From contig JALONO010000002.1 of NCBI GenBank assembly GCA_025454895.1, positions 1 through 42,651 on the forward strand: a stretch of DNA of 42,651 nucleotides. The letters run 5' to 3'. Position 1 is the first letter of the stretch, and every line of letters begins with the position of its first letter. The notes below the pieces were generated by a model. The model saw only the letters and a list, made by a program, of their open reading frames with translations. It did no database searches and had not been told where the DNA came from. Positions 4,408 through 38,779 of the stretch are shown in pieces. The position numbers and the translations under genes are program-made. The DNA comes from Bernardetiaceae bacterium. Lineage in GTDB: Bacteria; Bacteroidota; Bacteroidia; Cytophagales; Thermoflexibacteraceae.

Positions 4408-4513
4408 GGTAACAAACAAGTTAAGTGAAAAAGCAACGCCAACACCGACGTTTTGTTTAACCAAATACCGAGGTACGGGCAAAAAAGTTGCTTTGGGGGG
4501 TGAACAAAAGCGT

Positions 4514-4595
4514 CCTCCACCCCTCACAGGGGCGAAAGACACACCCCTGGCCCCTCTCAAGAGGGGAAATGCCCACTGGTAGGGTTTCGGGGCCT
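4514..4595. repeat. 82-bp direct repeat, copy 1
   Basis: This copy is identical to bases 4682-4763, 168 bp downstream start to start. It contains two short inverted repeats, CCCCTCACAGGGG and CCCCTCTCAAGAGGGG, so transcripts can form hairpins on either strand. It has no coding capacity of its own. Confidence 0.95.
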
Positions 4596-4681
4596 TACGG
4601 AGTGGCTTTTGATCTAGCCTAAAATGTCCCAAAAAGTAGGGGAGGGCCTTGTGCCCGCCCTGGTGGCCAGTGAACGCTCGA

Positions 4682-4763
4682 CCTCCACCCCTCACAGGGG
4701 CGAAAGACACACCCCTGGCCCCTCTCAAGAGGGGAAATGCCCACTGGTAGGGTTTCGGGGCCT
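4682..4763. repeat. 82-bp direct repeat, copy 2
   Basis: Second perfect copy of the 82-bp unit. The 86-bp spacer between the copies is unique sequence. The unit reads as a non-autonomous intergenic repeat; no transposase is nearby. Confidence 0.95.
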
Positions 4764-13616: not shown

Positions 13617-13626
13617 GAAAACCAAG

Positions 13627-13698
13627 TGGCCGCGCCAGGAATCGAACCTGGATCCTGAGCTCCGGAGGCTCATATACTATCCGTTGTACGACGCTGCC
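13627..13698 (-). tRNA. tRNA-Arg, anticodon CCG
   Basis: The 72-nt cloverleaf on the minus strand has acceptor GGCAGCG / CGCGGCC, D-stem GTAC/GTAT, anticodon stem TGAGC/GCTCA with loop CTCCGGA (anticodon CCG, reading CGG), a 4-nt variable region and T-arm CCAGG TTCGATT CCTGG. The discriminator base is A and CCA is not encoded. Position 4 (A) opposes position 69 (G), a mismatch in the acceptor stem. Promoter and terminator flank it closely. Confidence 0.93.
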
Positions 13699-16610: not shown

Positions 16611-17168
16611 ATGATGCTCACCGCCGAAGAAATCTTGTTTTTGCTAGCGCCCGGCCCGGTGCTGGCCCAGGTGCAAGCGGCCAAGCAGGAGTGGGGGTTC
16701 ACCGATTTGGCCGACGAGGATTTTTTTGCCCTGGTGCTTTTGGCCCCCACTGTGGGCATGGCCCTGGCCAACGGCAGCATTAGCCTGTACGAAGAACTGG
16801 CCCTCAACAAAAAAGCCCGGCAACTGTCAAAAGGCAATTATTTTCTGCGGAAAGACCCGTTCATGGGCGGGCTGAGCCGGTTCGTACAAGAATTTGCCCG
16901 GTTCGAGGCCGGCTGCTATGCCCTGATCAACCAGGCCGTTGCCGCGCAATTGCCCGGCGGTCCGCCCCCAAGCCCCCACCTCATGACCGCCCCTTATTTT
17001 TTGGTCAAATTGCTGGCCCTCCTGTTCTTAAGGGAAGAAGAAAGCATTTTGGCCAGCCGGGGCATCTCGCGCACCGAAATGGTTAAGTTGCGCGAAATCG
17101 GGGATGCGCTGGGGCTGGGCAACTCGGCGGTGTTCGAGGCTTTTTGCGCCACCTTTGTGGGCGCGTAG
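16611..17168 (+). CDS. Conserved-looking cytosolic protein of unknown function
   Basis: This 185-residue protein has no signal peptide or transmembrane helix and I do not recognise it. It is mostly alpha-helical by composition, with acidic and hydrophobic alternation (TAEEILFLLAPGPVLAQV, WGFTDLADEDFFALVLL, a central YFLRKDPFMGGLSRFVQEF, and FLVKLLALLFLREEESILA). The C-terminal third (ISRTEMVKLREIGDALGLG) could be a helix-turn-helix-like segment. Two ATGs in tandem (16611, 16614) could start it. It diverges from moaA and is convergent with the helical-protein gene; the intervening 105 bp is filled by one 102-bp element. Confidence 0.75.
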   Translation: MMLTAEEILFLLAPGPVLAQVQAAKQEWGFTDLADEDFFALVLLAPTVGMALANGSISLYEELALNKKARQLSKGNYFLRKDPFMGGLSRFVQEFARFEAGCYALINQAVAAQLPGGPPPSPHLMTAPYFLVKLLALLFLREEESILASRGISRTEMVKLREIGDALGLGNSAVFEAFCATFVGA

Positions 17169-17172
17169 GCTC

Positions 17173-17275
17173 ACACTAAAATGACTTAATGATTGCATGA
17201 TTAAATGATCGTTTTATTTGATTATCAATCATTTATAACATGAGAAATGCACAATCTCTATTTGATTTTAGTATT
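17173..17275 (-). repeat. 102-bp dispersed element, copy A (convergent gap)
   Basis: Full-length copy in minus orientation. The plus strand starts ACACTAAAATGACTTAATGA and ends GATTTTAGTATT, so the ends are inverted repeats. It fills the gap between two convergent stop codons (17168 and 17274) and overlaps the TAA of the minus-strand gene. Core TGATTATCAATCA is itself an inverted repeat. Confidence 0.85.
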
Positions 17276-19220: not shown

Positions 19221-21212
19221 GTGCGGATCGCTATTTTTTTTATCTGGCTTTTGGGGTTTGCCCCGGCAATGGCCCAGCCTGGTGCTCCGGCCCGCCAGGG
19301 GGGGGCACCACTGCCCATGGCCGCCCCGGCCGTGGCCCACGTGCGCGACAGTATCCGAAGACAATTGGTCAATCTGAGCCGCCAAGATACCCTCCTGGCC
19401 GATACCTGGCTCAACCTAGGCTGGACCTACCGCTTGGCCGAGGCCGATACTGCCTTCGTCTATTTGGAGAAGGGCCACCAATTGGCCGAGCAACTCCAAT
19501 GGCAAGCCGGCATAGCCAAGGCCCGGCTGTATCAAGGGGCCGTTAACCGGATTGTGGGCAACTACGCCCTGGCTTATCAGCAAGTGCTAGAGGCCCAAAA
19601 GTTGTTTGAAGCCCTGAGCGACCAGGCCCGGCTGGCCGACTGCCACAATAACCTAGGCATTATTTTGGGTAAAGAAGAGCGCTGGCCCGAGGCTATCGCG
19701 TTTTTTGAGCAGGCATTGGCCTATGGCCGCCAACATAACAACGATAGGCTAATAGGTACGGTTTTGAATAACCTGGCCGCGCTCCAGCTAGAGCAAAAAG
19801 ACTATGCCGCCGCTATCCAGTTGCTGCAAGAGGCTTATCCCGTAAGTATCAAAATCGGCGACAAGCTCACCACCGCCAACCTGCTGCGCAACTTGGGCAA
19901 GTGCTACCTCCAACTGGGCCGTTACGACAGTGCCATTTATTACTTGCGGACTTCGCGGACGTATTTTCAAGTGATGGACAGCCGGGTGGGCCAAACTACC
20001 GCCATGCAGCTACTAGCCAAGGCGCACCTCAAAACCAACCGACTGGACCTGGCCAAACCCCTGGCCGATAGCAGTTTGGCCACGGCCATGCAGCTCAAGG
20101 GCAAGGAACAGATCCGCGATGGTTACGAACTGATGTACCTCATGGCCGAGCAGCGGGGCGACCTAGGAACCGCTTTGCGCTACCACAAGCTTTGGTACGG
20201 CCTGGCCGATAGTTTAGTGAATGACCAGATTGTAAAAAAGTTAGCCAACTTACAGGCCAGCCACGACCTGGCCGCCGAGCGTGCCCGCAACCAGGTCCTC
20301 CAAGCCGAGCAAGCGGCCAAAAACCGTCAACTAGTTTGGGCCGGGCTGGTGGTATTGGCCCTAGTGGGGGCCTCGGTTTTGCTTTTGCGAAGCTATCTGG
20401 CCAAGCGAACGGCCTACCAGCTATTGGCGCAAACCCGGCAGCAAGAGGAACAAAAAAACCAGGAACTCCTAGCCCGCAACCAAGAACTGGCCCAATTGAA
20501 CCAGCAACTGGCCGGCCTCAACCAGGAACAAGCCGGCCTGATCGGCGTAGTGGCCCACGACCTTCGTTCGCCCTTTGGCCAGATCAAGGGCCTGCTGCAA
20601 CTGGCCCAACTAAGCGGCGAACTCAACCTGGAGCAGGCCGAGGCCCTAGCCCTGGCCGAGAAAGCCAGCGACGGCGGACTGGCCTTGATCCGCGACATCT
20701 TGTGGATTAGCGAGTTAGATAACCAAAAGCAACCCGCCCAGCCACAGCTTATCGCTGTTGGCCCGCTCATGGAACAAATTTTCCATACTCACCAAAGCCT
20801 GGCCCAGCCCAAGAATATCCCCATCAATTTGTTACCGCCCGAGAACGCCAAAGCGAGCTTTGTTACCGACCCTAACCGGCTTACGCGCGTTCTGAACAAT
20901 TTGCTATCGAACGCCATCAAGTTTTCGCCGCCTGAGCGCGGGGTAGAACTGGCCTGGTGGCTCGGGAACGACCAGTTGCACGTGCGGGTGAGCGACCAAG
21001 GGCCGGGCATCACCCAGGCCGACCAGGCCGAATTGTTCAAAAAGTTCAAGAAACTATCGGCCCGGCCCACCGGCGGCGAGGAGTCCACGGGCCTTGGCTT
21101 GGCCATTGTGAAAGGCTTGGTAGATCAATTGGGCGGGCAAATCGCGGTAGAGAGCCAAGTAGGTAAGGGCAGCGCGTTCACGGTGAGTTTGCCCCCGTTG
21201 CCCACTGTCTAA
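19221..21212 (+). CDS. TPR-containing membrane sensor histidine kinase
   Basis: The protein has 663 residues. The start is GTG 19221: an in-frame stop at 19194 and no ATG between leave it as the only start that yields the signal peptide (MRIAIFFIWLLGFAPAMAQ). Periplasmic TPR repeats fill about residues 45-340 (ADCHNNLGIILGKEERWPEA, VLNNLAALQLEQKDYAAAI, LLRNLGKCYLQLGRYDSAI). A transmembrane helix (~371-391) and a coiled coil precede the H-box VVAHDLRSPFGQ (His446). The N-box is NNLLSNAIKFS (~559), then VSDQGPGI and STGLGLAIVKGL. It lacks a receiver domain and no response regulator is adjacent. Periplasmic TPRs imply a protein-protein input. The phosphate acceptor is unknown. Confidence 0.92.
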   Translation: MRIAIFFIWLLGFAPAMAQPGAPARQGGAPLPMAAPAVAHVRDSIRRQLVNLSRQDTLLADTWLNLGWTYRLAEADTAFVYLEKGHQLAEQLQWQAGIAKARLYQGAVNRIVGNYALAYQQVLEAQKLFEALSDQARLADCHNNLGIILGKEERWPEAIAFFEQALAYGRQHNNDRLIGTVLNNLAALQLEQKDYAAAIQLLQEAYPVSIKIGDKLTTANLLRNLGKCYLQLGRYDSAIYYLRTSRTYFQVMDSRVGQTTAMQLLAKAHLKTNRLDLAKPLADSSLATAMQLKGKEQIRDGYELMYLMAEQRGDLGTALRYHKLWYGLADSLVNDQIVKKLANLQASHDLAAERARNQVLQAEQAAKNRQLVWAGLVVLALVGASVLLLRSYLAKRTAYQLLAQTRQQEEQKNQELLARNQELAQLNQQLAGLNQEQAGLIGVVAHDLRSPFGQIKGLLQLAQLSGELNLEQAEALALAEKASDGGLALIRDILWISELDNQKQPAQPQLIAVGPLMEQIFHTHQSLAQPKNIPINLLPPENAKASFVTDPNRLTRVLNNLLSNAIKFSPPERGVELAWWLGNDQLHVRVSDQGPGITQADQAELFKKFKKLSARPTGGEESTGLGLAIVKGLVDQLGGQIAVESQVGKGSAFTVSLPPLPTV

Positions 21213-21389
21213 GCTATGGCCTTGTCTTGCCCACTTGTTAGCTCTTTACATCCAAACTGAGTAGGATGTGTCTATTGCTGATGATGTAAATACTTTAGAC
21301 CTCTTGCAGATTAGATTTTTGACCAGGTGAAAGCCCGATTTTTCGTCTAAAATTCCCCCTTTTTTGGCCCCACCCTATACAGCCGCACT

Positions 21390-21460
21390 TACTCGCTCAA
21401 AAACTCCCGTTTTTGCCGTCCGTCGGACGACCAAAAGCGAATGAGCTTTTGGGGCGAGTA
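21390..21460. other. Perfect 71-nt cloverleaf (four-way junction)
   Basis: Outer stem TACTCGC (21390-21396) pairs with GCGAGTA (21454-21460). Inside are three perfect hairpins: CAAAAAC-TCCC-GTTTTTG (21398-21415), CGTCC-GTC-GGACG (21417-21429) and CCAAAAGC-GAATGA-GCTTTTGG (21431-21452). Single unpaired bases T97, C116, A130 and G153 (last three digits +21300) join the stems. All 27 pairs are Watson-Crick. It is not a tRNA: no T-arm and no 7-base anticodon loop. Confidence 0.85.
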
Positions 21461-21570
21461 TGTGGGTTGGGGCGCAATTACGGCCTGAGTACGGGTAATG
21501 TGCAAGAGTTCTTTTATAATCAGGCAGAAAACCATTTGATTTGGCAATCGCTAAGTCATGCAATCATTTT

Positions 21571-21673
21571 ATTCCAAAATCAAATAAGAATTGCGTGTTC
21601 CAGATGCTGTAAATGATTGATAAACAAGGAGCACAATCATTTAATCATGCAATCATTAAGTCATTTTAGTATC
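21571..21673 (+). repeat. 102-bp dispersed element, copy B (convergent gap)
   Basis: Starts ATTCCAAAATCAAATAAG and ends AAGTCATTTTAGTATC, 8 bp from the TGA of the minus-strand gene. It contains AAATGATTGATAAACAA and AATCATTTAATCATGCAATC in consensus order. Confidence 0.87.
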
Positions 21674-21680
21674 TGCCTAA

Positions 21681-23408
21681 TCAATATTTTCCGGTTTTGA
21701 ACTTGATTTCGGTAGTGGTGGAATTGCCCAGTTTATCCTCGGCCCGCACCCGCACCGTGTAGGTTTTATTTTTGCCGAAGCCCTTTATCTGCCCGGGATA
21801 AGCCGCTTCTTTGCTGCCGTTGAGGCTGTAGCGCAGCCCCTCAAAGCCCGTTTGGGTGTCGGTAGCGGCCAGGAACAGCGAGGCGTAGCTGGGGTAAACG
21901 GGTAGCCCGCCGTCGGTGCCAATGGGCGATACGCTGAAGGTGTGGCTCACCAACGGGCCTTGGTTGTCCAGCACAAACAAAAAGCTGCGCAAGTTGCGGT
22001 TGTTCACGTTATCGTACCCCACAATGGTGATCTGGTGCGCGCCCTCGTCGTTGAAAACAAACGGGGTAGTGTAGCGTCGTTCTTCCGTTTCGCCGTCCAC
22101 CTGGTAGGCGATGTATTGCAGGCCCGCCTCGGCGTCGGAGGCCCCTAGCTGGATCCGGGTTTGGCGGTTGATGAACACCGTATCGCCTTTGGTAAAATAC
22201 TTACCCAAAAATTGGTGGTTGAGGCTGGGCCCGGTTAGGTCTACGTACACCAGGCCCACGGTGTGGTCAACCTCGTCATACTTGCGGTCCGGGTTGCCCG
22301 CGCCTTGGTTGCCCATGTTGTCGATGGCATAATAACGGATAGTGTGTAGTCCCGATTTGGCGGGCAGGTAAAACGGCTCGGTGTAATCGTGGTAAGGCTC
22401 CCCATCTAATGAGTAAAGGGTTTGTTTGATGCCGGCTCGGTTATCCACCGCGGTGAGCTTGAGCTTGGTGCGGCCGGAGAAGTAAACCCGGTCGTCCACG
22501 ATGAAGCGGTCGCCCAAAATATCGGCCGACATGATGGGGGCGGTTTTATCGAGGTAGAAGCTAAATGTTTGCTCCGGTTCGCGGTTCCCGGTTTCGTCCA
22601 CCGAGTAATAGGTGAGGGTATGGCTGCCCTCCTCCCACTGGGCCAGGGGCAGGTTGCTGCCCGGCACCACCGGGACAAACGGCCGGTCGTCGAGCTTGTA
22701 AAAAGTGCGGGCTACCCCAGCCACCGAATCGACGCTGGTGAGGTAGAGCTTGGTGGTAAGCGAGATCACATTGTTTTGGGCAATGCCCACCACGTTATGG
22801 TAAGTGCGCGGCGGCGCAATATCAACCGTAATTTGTTGATCGTGAATATTTTCCATATTTCCCACCCGATCCACGGCGTAGTACTTGCACACCACTTGGC
22901 CCGCTTGGTCAAGTTGGATGGGGCCGGTGTAAGGGGCAAAATCGCGCCCGTTTAGCGAGTAATAAATCTGCTCTAGGCCGCTCATCTGGTCGCGGGCGGT
23001 GAGCGTAAGCGTAAGGCCCGGCCCAAAATACTGCCGCCCGTTGGCCTGGTGGCGCGCCGCGTTGCTAAACTTGGCCTCGGTGGTGGGGGGCAGGCCGTCA
23101 GCATAAATGGCGAAGTAATCGGTGTGGGGGTCCACCGCGTCAAGGTGCCGCAGGTAGTGCTTGCCGTGCCCGTCCAAGTAAATGGCCCGGCGTTCCATTT
23201 CCGTCCGTTCGCCTTGCTCGCGGCCTAGGGGCACGGGGGGGCCGGTGGGCGAGGTGGCCACAAACACGTACACAGGCAAGCTCACGTGCTGGTAGTAGCG
23301 GTTGAGGCTATCGGTATAAGTTTTTTTAGGATGATTTGGCGGGGTTTGCGCTAGGGCCACCGAAGTAGTGAACACCCAGAACAGTAGCCAGCTATGTTTC
23401 AACAACAT
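21681..23408 (-). CDS. Secreted repeat protein with OmpL47/chitobiase-like Ig modules
   Basis: The protein has 575 residues and a signal peptide (MLLKHSWLLFWVFTTSVALAQ). After an N-terminal segment, about five repeats of roughly 95 residues share the pattern: D..SG…YSLNG.…Y..P..L…G.H.…YYA.D..GN. Examples are IYYSLNGRDFAPYTGPIQLD, TFYKLDDRPFVPVV…SVDETGNRE and TLYSLDGEPYHDYTEPFYLP. This is the OmpL47-type beta-sandwich repeat found in surface proteins. No catalytic domain, sortase or Por sorting domain is visible. A structural or binding role at the cell surface is likely. It is convergent with the histidine kinase and has no recognisable promoter. Confidence 0.78.
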   Translation of the reverse strand: MLLKHSWLLFWVFTTSVALAQTPPNHPKKTYTDSLNRYYQHVSLPVYVFVATSPTGPPVPLGREQGERTEMERRAIYLDGHGKHYLRHLDAVDPHTDYFAIYADGLPPTTEAKFSNAARHQANGRQYFGPGLTLTLTARDQMSGLEQIYYSLNGRDFAPYTGPIQLDQAGQVVCKYYAVDRVGNMENIHDQQITVDIAPPRTYHNVVGIAQNNVISLTTKLYLTSVDSVAGVARTFYKLDDRPFVPVVPGSNLPLAQWEEGSHTLTYYSVDETGNREPEQTFSFYLDKTAPIMSADILGDRFIVDDRVYFSGRTKLKLTAVDNRAGIKQTLYSLDGEPYHDYTEPFYLPAKSGLHTIRYYAIDNMGNQGAGNPDRKYDEVDHTVGLVYVDLTGPSLNHQFLGKYFTKGDTVFINRQTRIQLGASDAEAGLQYIAYQVDGETEERRYTTPFVFNDEGAHQITIVGYDNVNNRNLRSFLFVLDNQGPLVSHTFSVSPIGTDGGLPVYPSYASLFLAATDTQTGFEGLRYSLNGSKEAAYPGQIKGFGKNKTYTVRVRAEDKLGNSTTTEIKFKTGKY

Positions 23409-35242: not shown

Positions 35243-35555
35243 GGCGTTCAAGGTAGGCCCCTGCCTAAAGGGCCGGGCGTAAAAGTAAGGCCGGGCGCGC
35301 AAAATGTTGAATCGGCCACGCGCTAGGAACGTGCAACCTGGCAGTGGCTTGCTAACCTGACAGCGGTCAGCGTCGTAGGATTTCTGTTTACCTACCGAGC
35401 CACCCCAAACTAGGGACGCTGCTGGTGGCTAAAAGCCGTGGCTGTGGCCGGTTTTATACCCAAATCAAATCAAGATTGCCGATCCATCCGGTATAAACGA
35501 TTGATGACCAAATGAAAAAATCATTTGATCATGCCATCATTAAGTCATTTTACGA
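35243..35555. other. 313-bp gap with element copy E
   Basis: No gene is seen between the uxaC start and the DUF5686 stop. Beside element copy E there is only a small CTGAC/GTCAG stem near 35357. I find no consensus promoter for uxaC. Confidence 0.6.
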
Positions 35556-38279: not shown

Positions 38280-38779
38280 AAGAAGCATTTGGACACCTGG
38301 ACCCAGGCGGCCAAGTGGTTTTGTTGCATAGATGCCCGCCACCCGGCAAAGGTTGCCAAGGCTGGGCGATATTGTAACCTAACCTAACCTGGGCGGGTGT
38401 TGTTTAAAGATTGGTTTGGGTCCGACTAGTGTTCGCGCCGGACGGACCGCCGGGCTATCATGCTCAAGTGGTAGGCCTGACTGGACGAAAAGCAACCAAC
38501 CAACGCTCGTTGATGGTAGAAACCACCCAATTAGCCAGCGCAACTTTCTCCGTTTTGCCTAACGAGGATTTTCACCAATTGTCAGCAAGATCAAAAGCAC
38601 TCGCCCCAAACGGGGCAAGTGTTTTTAACAATTGATAAACCGAGGCATGACATTTAGTTGACTTATTTAGGCAAACTTGTGCCAAAACCAAATAGCGATT
38701 GCGGGTTTCTTGGGCTATAAATAATGGATAGTCAGGAATAACAGTCATTTGATCATGCAATCATTAAGTCATTTTAGAC
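38280..38779. other. 500-bp gap with orphan terminator and element copy F
   Basis: No supported protein gene. An intrinsic-terminator-like hairpin at 38598-38626 has no gene upstream on plus, and element copy F reaches the stop of the HlyD gene. Short frames at 38411-38635 (plus) and 38572-38760 (minus) have no family features. Confidence 0.65.
38598..38626 (+). terminator. Orphan intrinsic terminator
   Basis: CACTCGCCCC (38598-38607) pairs with GGGGCAAGTG (38612-38621) with one C-A mismatch, loop AAAC, then T5. The plus strand has no gene for 4.7 kb upstream, so it may end an unannotated small RNA; on minus it is followed by TTTT too. Confidence 0.7.

Follow-up and report, generated by a model that had tools for sequence, protein, structure and literature searches.

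The cloverleaf at positions 21390-21460 of the window (the whole stretch of 42,651 nucleotides analyzed here, from a Bernardetiaceae bacterium) is, with a probability of about 0.85, a by-product of nested inverted DNA repeats, in which REP-like hairpin units lie inside a MITE-like palindrome. The palindrome carries a hairpin in each arm and therefore gives a perfect four-way junction, so that the nesting of two repeat kinds accounts for the striking fold, and a cloverleaf is what such nesting ordinarily produces. The original prediction had taken the cloverleaf as the functional unit; our analysis replaces it with a unit made of one hairpin arm and its flank, the cloverleaf being an inverted pair of differing versions within a larger palindrome. 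Our verdict is that this unit represents a new family of REP-like repeats, here housed within a MITE, which may or may not coincide with the structures linked to RAYT subclass 2.6.

The geometry first reported for the cloverleaf (stems of 7, 7, 5 and 8 bp in 71 nt, with single-base junctions) is exact base for base, both in the sequence and on folding. All 27 of its 27 pairs are Watson-Crick, and each of the four junctions holds one free base (21397, 21416, 21430 and 21453). The outer stem TACTCGC/GCGAGTA (7 bp; 21390-21396/21454-21460) encloses hairpin 1 (CAAAAAC-TCCC-GTTTTTG; 21398-21404/21409-21415; type a), hairpin 2 (CGTCC-GTC-GGACG; 21417-21421/21425-21429) and hairpin 3 (CCAAAAGC-GAATGA-GCTTTTGG; 21431-21438/21445-21452; type b). 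The sequence folds to exactly four stems under both RNA and DNA parameters and is, as had been claimed, too regular for chance: none of 200 shuffles folded as well in either case, with z at about -6.7 (minimum free energy z = -6.76 for RNA in a 91-nt segment around the cloverleaf and z = -6.65 for DNA in the 71-nt cloverleaf). It is also rightly described as not a tRNA, since ARAGORN made no call there (the sole tRNA found is tRNA-Arg at 13626-13698) and the tRNA fold with an anticodon is absent; a known Rfam family is likewise ruled out, as no Rfam 15 covariance model matched the cloverleaf at E<=1 and none matched the unit either.

The perfection of 27 of 27 pairs is a property of the window copy and not of all cloverleaf copies. 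Across 13 full copies, 329 of 351 pair cells are Watson-Crick; the three hairpins are nearly intact, and the outermost two pairs of the outer stem are broken in 4/13 and 9/13 copies. Compensatory changes in homologues do exist, and the three hairpins withstand the refuting condition set by the original prediction (no homologous copy, or uncompensated changes), whereas these two outermost pairs do not.

The cloverleaf is the centre of an imperfect, MITE-like palindrome of 216 bp, which lies at window positions 21296-21513 with the terminal inverted repeat (TIR) GACCTCTTGCA and flanking TA. Read from end to end, the whole element (no strand assigned) comprises TA, an imperfect palindrome of ~214 bp bounded by terminal inverted repeats, and TT at the right as a decayed TA. 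The left repeat, TAGACCTCTTGCAGATTAG (21296-21314, plus strand), has zero mismatches against the family TIR, and the right one, TAATGTGCAAGAGTTCTT (21496-21513, minus strand), is slightly decayed. The location in a convergent gap is confirmed, the element being flanked by a TPR-histidine kinase gene (19221-21212, plus strand) and an OmpL47/Ig-like surface protein gene (21681-23408, minus strand). Homologous copies exist: a BLAST search of the same genome with 21360-21480 returned 63 places, including about 15 at full length, and the core of the cloverleaf is also present in more than 25 partial copies. In the aligned copies the repeat reaches well past the cloverleaf, from TAGACCTCTTGCAGATTAG to its inverse at the far end. 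With up to 3 mismatches the TIR pattern occurs at 253 places of the genome (125+128), vs 1 for the reversed control, and the matches pair up at a spacing of 137-420 bp. TA is present at both ends in 47 of the 61 classified elements and, judging by the flanks, would be a target duplication. These results show that the region belongs to a family of non-coding, MITE-like palindromes that is present in high copy number, has GACCTCTTGCA termini and is flanked by TA. By rough ORF calls, 32 elements of this genome lie in tandem gaps, 22 in convergent gaps and 2 in divergent gaps. No carriage by plasmids or phages was found, and a viral scan with the flanking protein gave no match.

Like MITEs with TA duplication, the element has short TIRs common to many copies, TA at both ends, more than 100 near-identical non-coding copies and a strong fold. 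It differs from them in its modular interior, where hairpin units are swapped into the arms of the central palindrome, and in that no parent IS was found: searches of the 389-contig draft assembly for DDE_Tnp_1 and DDE_Tnp_1_2 identified no element with these TIRs, and no DDE_Tnp_1_2 gene at all. A single DDE_Tnp_1 gene was found there; it belongs to a complete-looking IS5-like element within a coding region (L115, G000:C209:6659-7123) and is ruled out as the parent by its different ends (TIR AGAAGCTGTTTGAGTTAAA). With up to 1 mismatch the TIR pattern had no match elsewhere in the order sample (194 further genomes), and the MITE part is for this reason without a comparative history. The MITE would have spread in trans through a TA-targeting DDE transposase, the candidate enzyme for this step.

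The anatomy of the family was read from 61 TIR-bounded elements in fetched loci of the same genome, whose lengths cluster at 144-147, 178-185 and 211-220 bp. The plain form is a 145-bp element with the GC-rich central hairpin CCCTCCCC-GTC-GGGGAGGG; 18 of the 61 elements hold no hairpin unit, and 15 of these 18 measure 137-167 bp and have this centre. In the derived forms, by our reading of the alignment, a unit of ~40 nt takes the place of CTCC in the left arm or of the complementary GGAG in the right arm. One unit is present in 28 elements (18 mostly of 178-185 bp, and 10 with a further insert of ~100-200 bp), units in both arms, and hence the cloverleaf core, are present in 14 (182-238 bp, mostly 211-220), and a single element has the insert and no unit.

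The window copy carries units in both arms, of two sequence types (a and b) that are inverted relative to each other. Unit a (CACTTACTCGC-T-CAAAAAC-TCCC-GTTTTTG-C-CGTC; 21379-21426, plus strand), whose loop on the minus strand is the GNRA tetraloop GGGA, is matched by the covariance model described below (C369:21379-21426, with a rough E-value of 1.6e-13). Unit b (CACATACTCGC-C-CCAAAAGC-TCATTC-GCTTTTGG-T-CGTC; 21420-21471, minus strand) was placed by its sequence, and in locus L251 model R2 makes a call on each strand of a dimer homologous to the window pair (1501-1548, plus; 1542-1593, minus). Judged from sequence, hairpins 1 and 3 represent a single unit in two versions that point in opposite directions. 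When base, one-unit and two-unit elements are compared, the inverted units are seen to meet in hairpin 2 (21417-21429, no strand assigned), on either side of the GTC loop that belonged to the ancestral hairpin CCCTCCCC-GTC-GGGGAGGG. Intermediate versions of the unit (CCAAAAC-TCTC-GTTTTGG and CAAAAGC-TCAATC-GCTTTTG) also occur in this genome. The unit is ruled out as a coding sequence, since, by our own reading, a difference of 4 nt between the cores of types a and b leaves them no common reading frame.

Two further observations concern the interior of these elements. About one fifth of them (L022, L024, L028, L029, L030, L087 and others) have in the central hairpin the insert of ~100-200 bp (GGGCAGGGGTGATCC...GGATCACCCCTGCCC), apparently bordered by repeated GTCGG and forming a third nesting layer. 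In addition, identical central cores are found within other termini (AGAGTTTTTGCATATTGA / TCAACACGCAAAAACTCT) at L031-L034, L036-L038, L043, L044 and L094; the cores appear to have been exchanged between the MITE-like family with GACCTCTTGCA termini and that with AGAGTTTTTGCATATTGA / TCAACACGCAAAAACTCT.

The unit first came to light as a repeat in its own right through one match of 29 nt in G015, a distant genome within the order. The unit follows the formula S-CACA-n-CTSGC-Y-[hairpin]-Y-CS over ~40 nt, and an IUPAC pattern for the unit has 88 copies in the genome of the window, 4 each in G015 and G114, and 0 in 394 other genomes of the class. A covariance model built from 29 units detected the unit in 14 of 195 order genomes, and a second model, from units of other genomes only, in 27 of 395 class genomes, the E-values of both models being rough. 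Copy number ranges from none to dozens between genomes, and the host repeats differ: they are GC-rich palindromes in the genome of the window (G000) and in G114, TTTTTGCTTGnCCAAAA palindromes in G015, G034, G049 and G140, and another MITE-like palindrome in G060. The G114 unit has a compensatory C-G in place of A-T and occupies the same position within a different GC-rich palindrome. Our analysis thus showed that the unit is a REP-like repeat that recurs in unrelated host palindromes across Bacteroidia; its flanks are conserved, and its stem is free in sequence but complementary. Separately, three loci of G015 (L061, L062 and L064) contain two to three differing hairpin units with TCTC loops in tandem within one intergenic stretch, which suggests arrays of hairpin units.

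In G114 the unit-bearing palindrome is found in frame within several conserved genes, including carB. Residues 1-329 and 381-677 of this CarB query align to E. coli CarB 218-549 and 557-853, and residues 330-380 correspond to only about 7 residues of the E. coli protein. About 45 residues were thus added to G114 CarB precisely at the position of the repeat, which shows that the host repeat was inserted; the unit may have come with it or later. The GC-rich unit-bearing repeat also lies in frame inside genes at L193 (G114:C351, 993-1041, minus strand), L194, L195 and L197, the genes being carB and also an apparent helicase, penicillin-binding protein and glycosyltransferase. These repeats are like Rickettsia palindromic elements, some of which are CGTC REPs (PMC3733652), in that a palindromic repeat lies in frame in conserved genes; they differ in sequence and in phylum, being in Bacteroidia, and their host palindrome is GC-rich, with the unit making up just a part of it. 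In-frame copies in housekeeping genes represent datable insertion events.

Among known systems, the unit was compared with REP, BIME and REPIN sequences of the GTAG and CGTC super-families, which are hairpins of 20-40 nt with a conserved foot (Di Nocera et al., 2013; PMC3733652). In the broad sense it is REP-like, being a dispersed extragenic hairpin with a compensatory stem and inverted dimers. REPs likewise show compensatory stem changes, form inverted dimers that are often heterodimers, lie sometimes within other palindromes, and are mainly extragenic and downstream of genes, with some intragenic copies (PMC3733652); our elements likewise avoid divergent gaps. In contrast to GTAG REPs, the unit has no GTAG (or GTGG, GYRG) 5' of the hairpin in alignments A2-A4, and no cognate Y1 (RAYT) gene flanked by the repeat was found. 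CGTC REPs have a 5'-CGTC, a CCA tail and a stem whose first two pairs are A-T (PMC3733652), whereas in the unit this tetranucleotide varies (CGTC, CGCC, CCTT, CCCC) and follows the stem on its 3' side, and the first stem pair is C-G. Both super-families also lack the flank S-CACA...CTSGC-Y, the co-varying Y/Y junction and the mostly GNRA-type loops of the unit. We found no description of the unit, or of interspersed palindromes of Bacteroidetes matching it, in the open-access literature.

The closest alternative is a REP system proper, in which a Y1 (HUH) transposase, perhaps one of RAYT subclass 2.6, would recognize the unit as its hairpin and the window pair would be a REPIN. That subclass is specific to Bacteroidetes and has "atypical secondary structures" without GT[AG]G flanking the transposase gene, according to PMC6006769; the unit resembles these structures in being a repeated, Bacteroidetes secondary structure without GT[AG]G, and it may or may not be identical with them, the comparison being by description only. 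Its size, the inverted pairing of differing versions, the conserved foot by the hairpin and the extragenic and in-frame intragenic sites are also as in REPs (PMC3733652). Y1 genes are present in 11 of the 13 unit-bearing genomes, and some units lie within about 0.5-1.8 kb of one, in G088 (L174), G140 (L222) and G031 (L247, L280). However, the genome of the window, in which the unit pattern occurs 88 times, yielded no Y1_Tnp gene, and G034 and G049 yielded none either. This rules out a REPIN with a resident RAYT and leaves IS200/IS605 membership without its Y1 transposase. Moreover, a clear unit was found at only two of about 50 Y1 loci (3-kb pieces), none flanked the Y1 gene on both sides, and tblastn of Y1 proteins against 119 unit loci placed a Y1 gene at two places only (L158 and L222 overlap); on these counts linkage to subclass 2.6 is also rejected. 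A REP system proper, which would in addition have to do without the GTAG or GTGG tag, is in our view unlikely, and the conserved position next to a recombinase, a check proposed in the original prediction, is not supported, units being near Y1 genes only sporadically in other genomes. Recognition as a folded single strand is possible for the hairpin unit.

Covariation within the unit was assessed in alignments A3 (88 distinct units of 12 other genomes) and A4 (23 class-wide units), both of which were fitted to the model and have related rows, so that counts are not independent events; the rows of A2 were chosen by a regular expression that required AAA..TTT. In A3, 98.6% of cells are paired over the 7-bp stem and a 2-bp lower helix, 91 cells are doubly changed (shuffles, 20; slid versions, far fewer), and the covariation score is 0.350 vs 0.112. 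In A4, all 198 of 198 cells are Watson-Crick with a score of 0.486 vs 0.124, and the stem interiors are as dissimilar as AAACTCTCGTTT, AAGTCCACTGGACTT and ACAGCCACTGGCTGT. The bases flanking the stem co-vary as T..C in 53 and C..T in 37 units, with 5 exceptions and 2 gapped rows, which on the opposite strand is a G.A/A.G swap. On the purine strand the loop is of GNRA type in 87 of 97 units (GAGA 61, GGGA 9, GAAA 9, GCGA 4, GCAA 2, GGAA 2).

Perfect stems with double changes could also come from template-switch repair instead of selection. A second alternative, which we consider somewhat less probable than a REP system, is accordingly a mutational product, where template switching at quasi-palindromes during replication perfects and diversifies palindromes without any recognition of the hairpin. 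Stem interiors that differ wholesale and are nonetheless Watson-Crick, with almost no wobble intermediates, are what such concerted correction predicts. However, the unpaired flanks (S-CACA...CTSGC-Y / Y-CS) and the GNRA-type loops are conserved across families, and palindrome correction alone is therefore insufficient.

The least probable of the three alternatives is an RNA motif, in which the GNRA-strand hairpin or the whole cloverleaf would be transcribed, e.g., as a 3'-end stabilizer, terminator or protein-binding element. The GNRA-type loops leave room for RNA-level recognition, and the covarying stem with its purine-purine junction, the strong RNA fold and the location of elements downstream of genes, in convergent and seldom in divergent gaps, are consistent with it. 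GNRA-like loops, however, are also stable in DNA hairpins. Moreover, the GNRA strand has no significant sense preference relative to the upstream gene (45 sense vs 33 antisense, by rough ORF calls), and G-U wobbles are nearly absent from it (2 in about 770 cells; the pyrimidine strand has 7, compared with 754 Watson-Crick cells). The lack of strand bias and the rarity of wobbles therefore favor a DNA-level element, or the perfecting of palindromes by template switching. Copy numbers of none to dozens between genomes and the lack of an Rfam family also argue against an RNA, and the structured small RNA among the candidates of the original prediction is not upheld; the cloverleaf is most likely not a stand-alone small RNA.

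Under the preferred reading of hairpin units nested in a MITE-like palindrome, the unit would settle in pre-existing palindromes and be kept and copied as folded single-stranded DNA (on the lagging strand or in a cruciform), as is thought for REP repeats. Any effect on the host would be secondary, for instance by providing a 3'-end structure that works in both directions for the convergent flanking genes. We tentatively propose, at somewhat less than even odds, that a third large super-family of REP-like repeats, spread across Bacteroidia, is founded on the unit, which would be recognized as folded single-stranded DNA by an enzyme other than an adjacent Y1 transposase and would insert into palindrome arms; if so, insertion of the unit turns simple hairpins into cloverleaves. 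The unit is a hairpin repeat of many Bacteroidia genomes that is present neither in Rfam nor in the text of the two REP surveys compared (PMC3733652 and PMC6006769). Its variable stem interior with a stable flank and loop offers a comparative system for the copying of CGTC-like and other transposase-less REPs, a question left open in PMC3733652.

Other features of the window were also observed. A second, AT-rich repeat family with AATGACTTAATGATTGCATG words occurs at 21569-21669, 17166-17274, 35453-35553, 38677-38777 and 1408-1551, and is within 200 bp of 25 of 73 MITE elements, about 9x the density further away; it is probably what the original prediction called element copy B. An 85-bp direct repeat rich in CCCCT/AGGGG is present at 4511-4595 and 4679-4763 (99% identity, 168 bp apart). 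Finally, the minus strand at 5-1399 encodes a protein like beta-CASP nucleases, including the type VII CRISPR Cas14 model (369 bits vs a cut-off of 800), which is probably an aCPSF1-like RNase.
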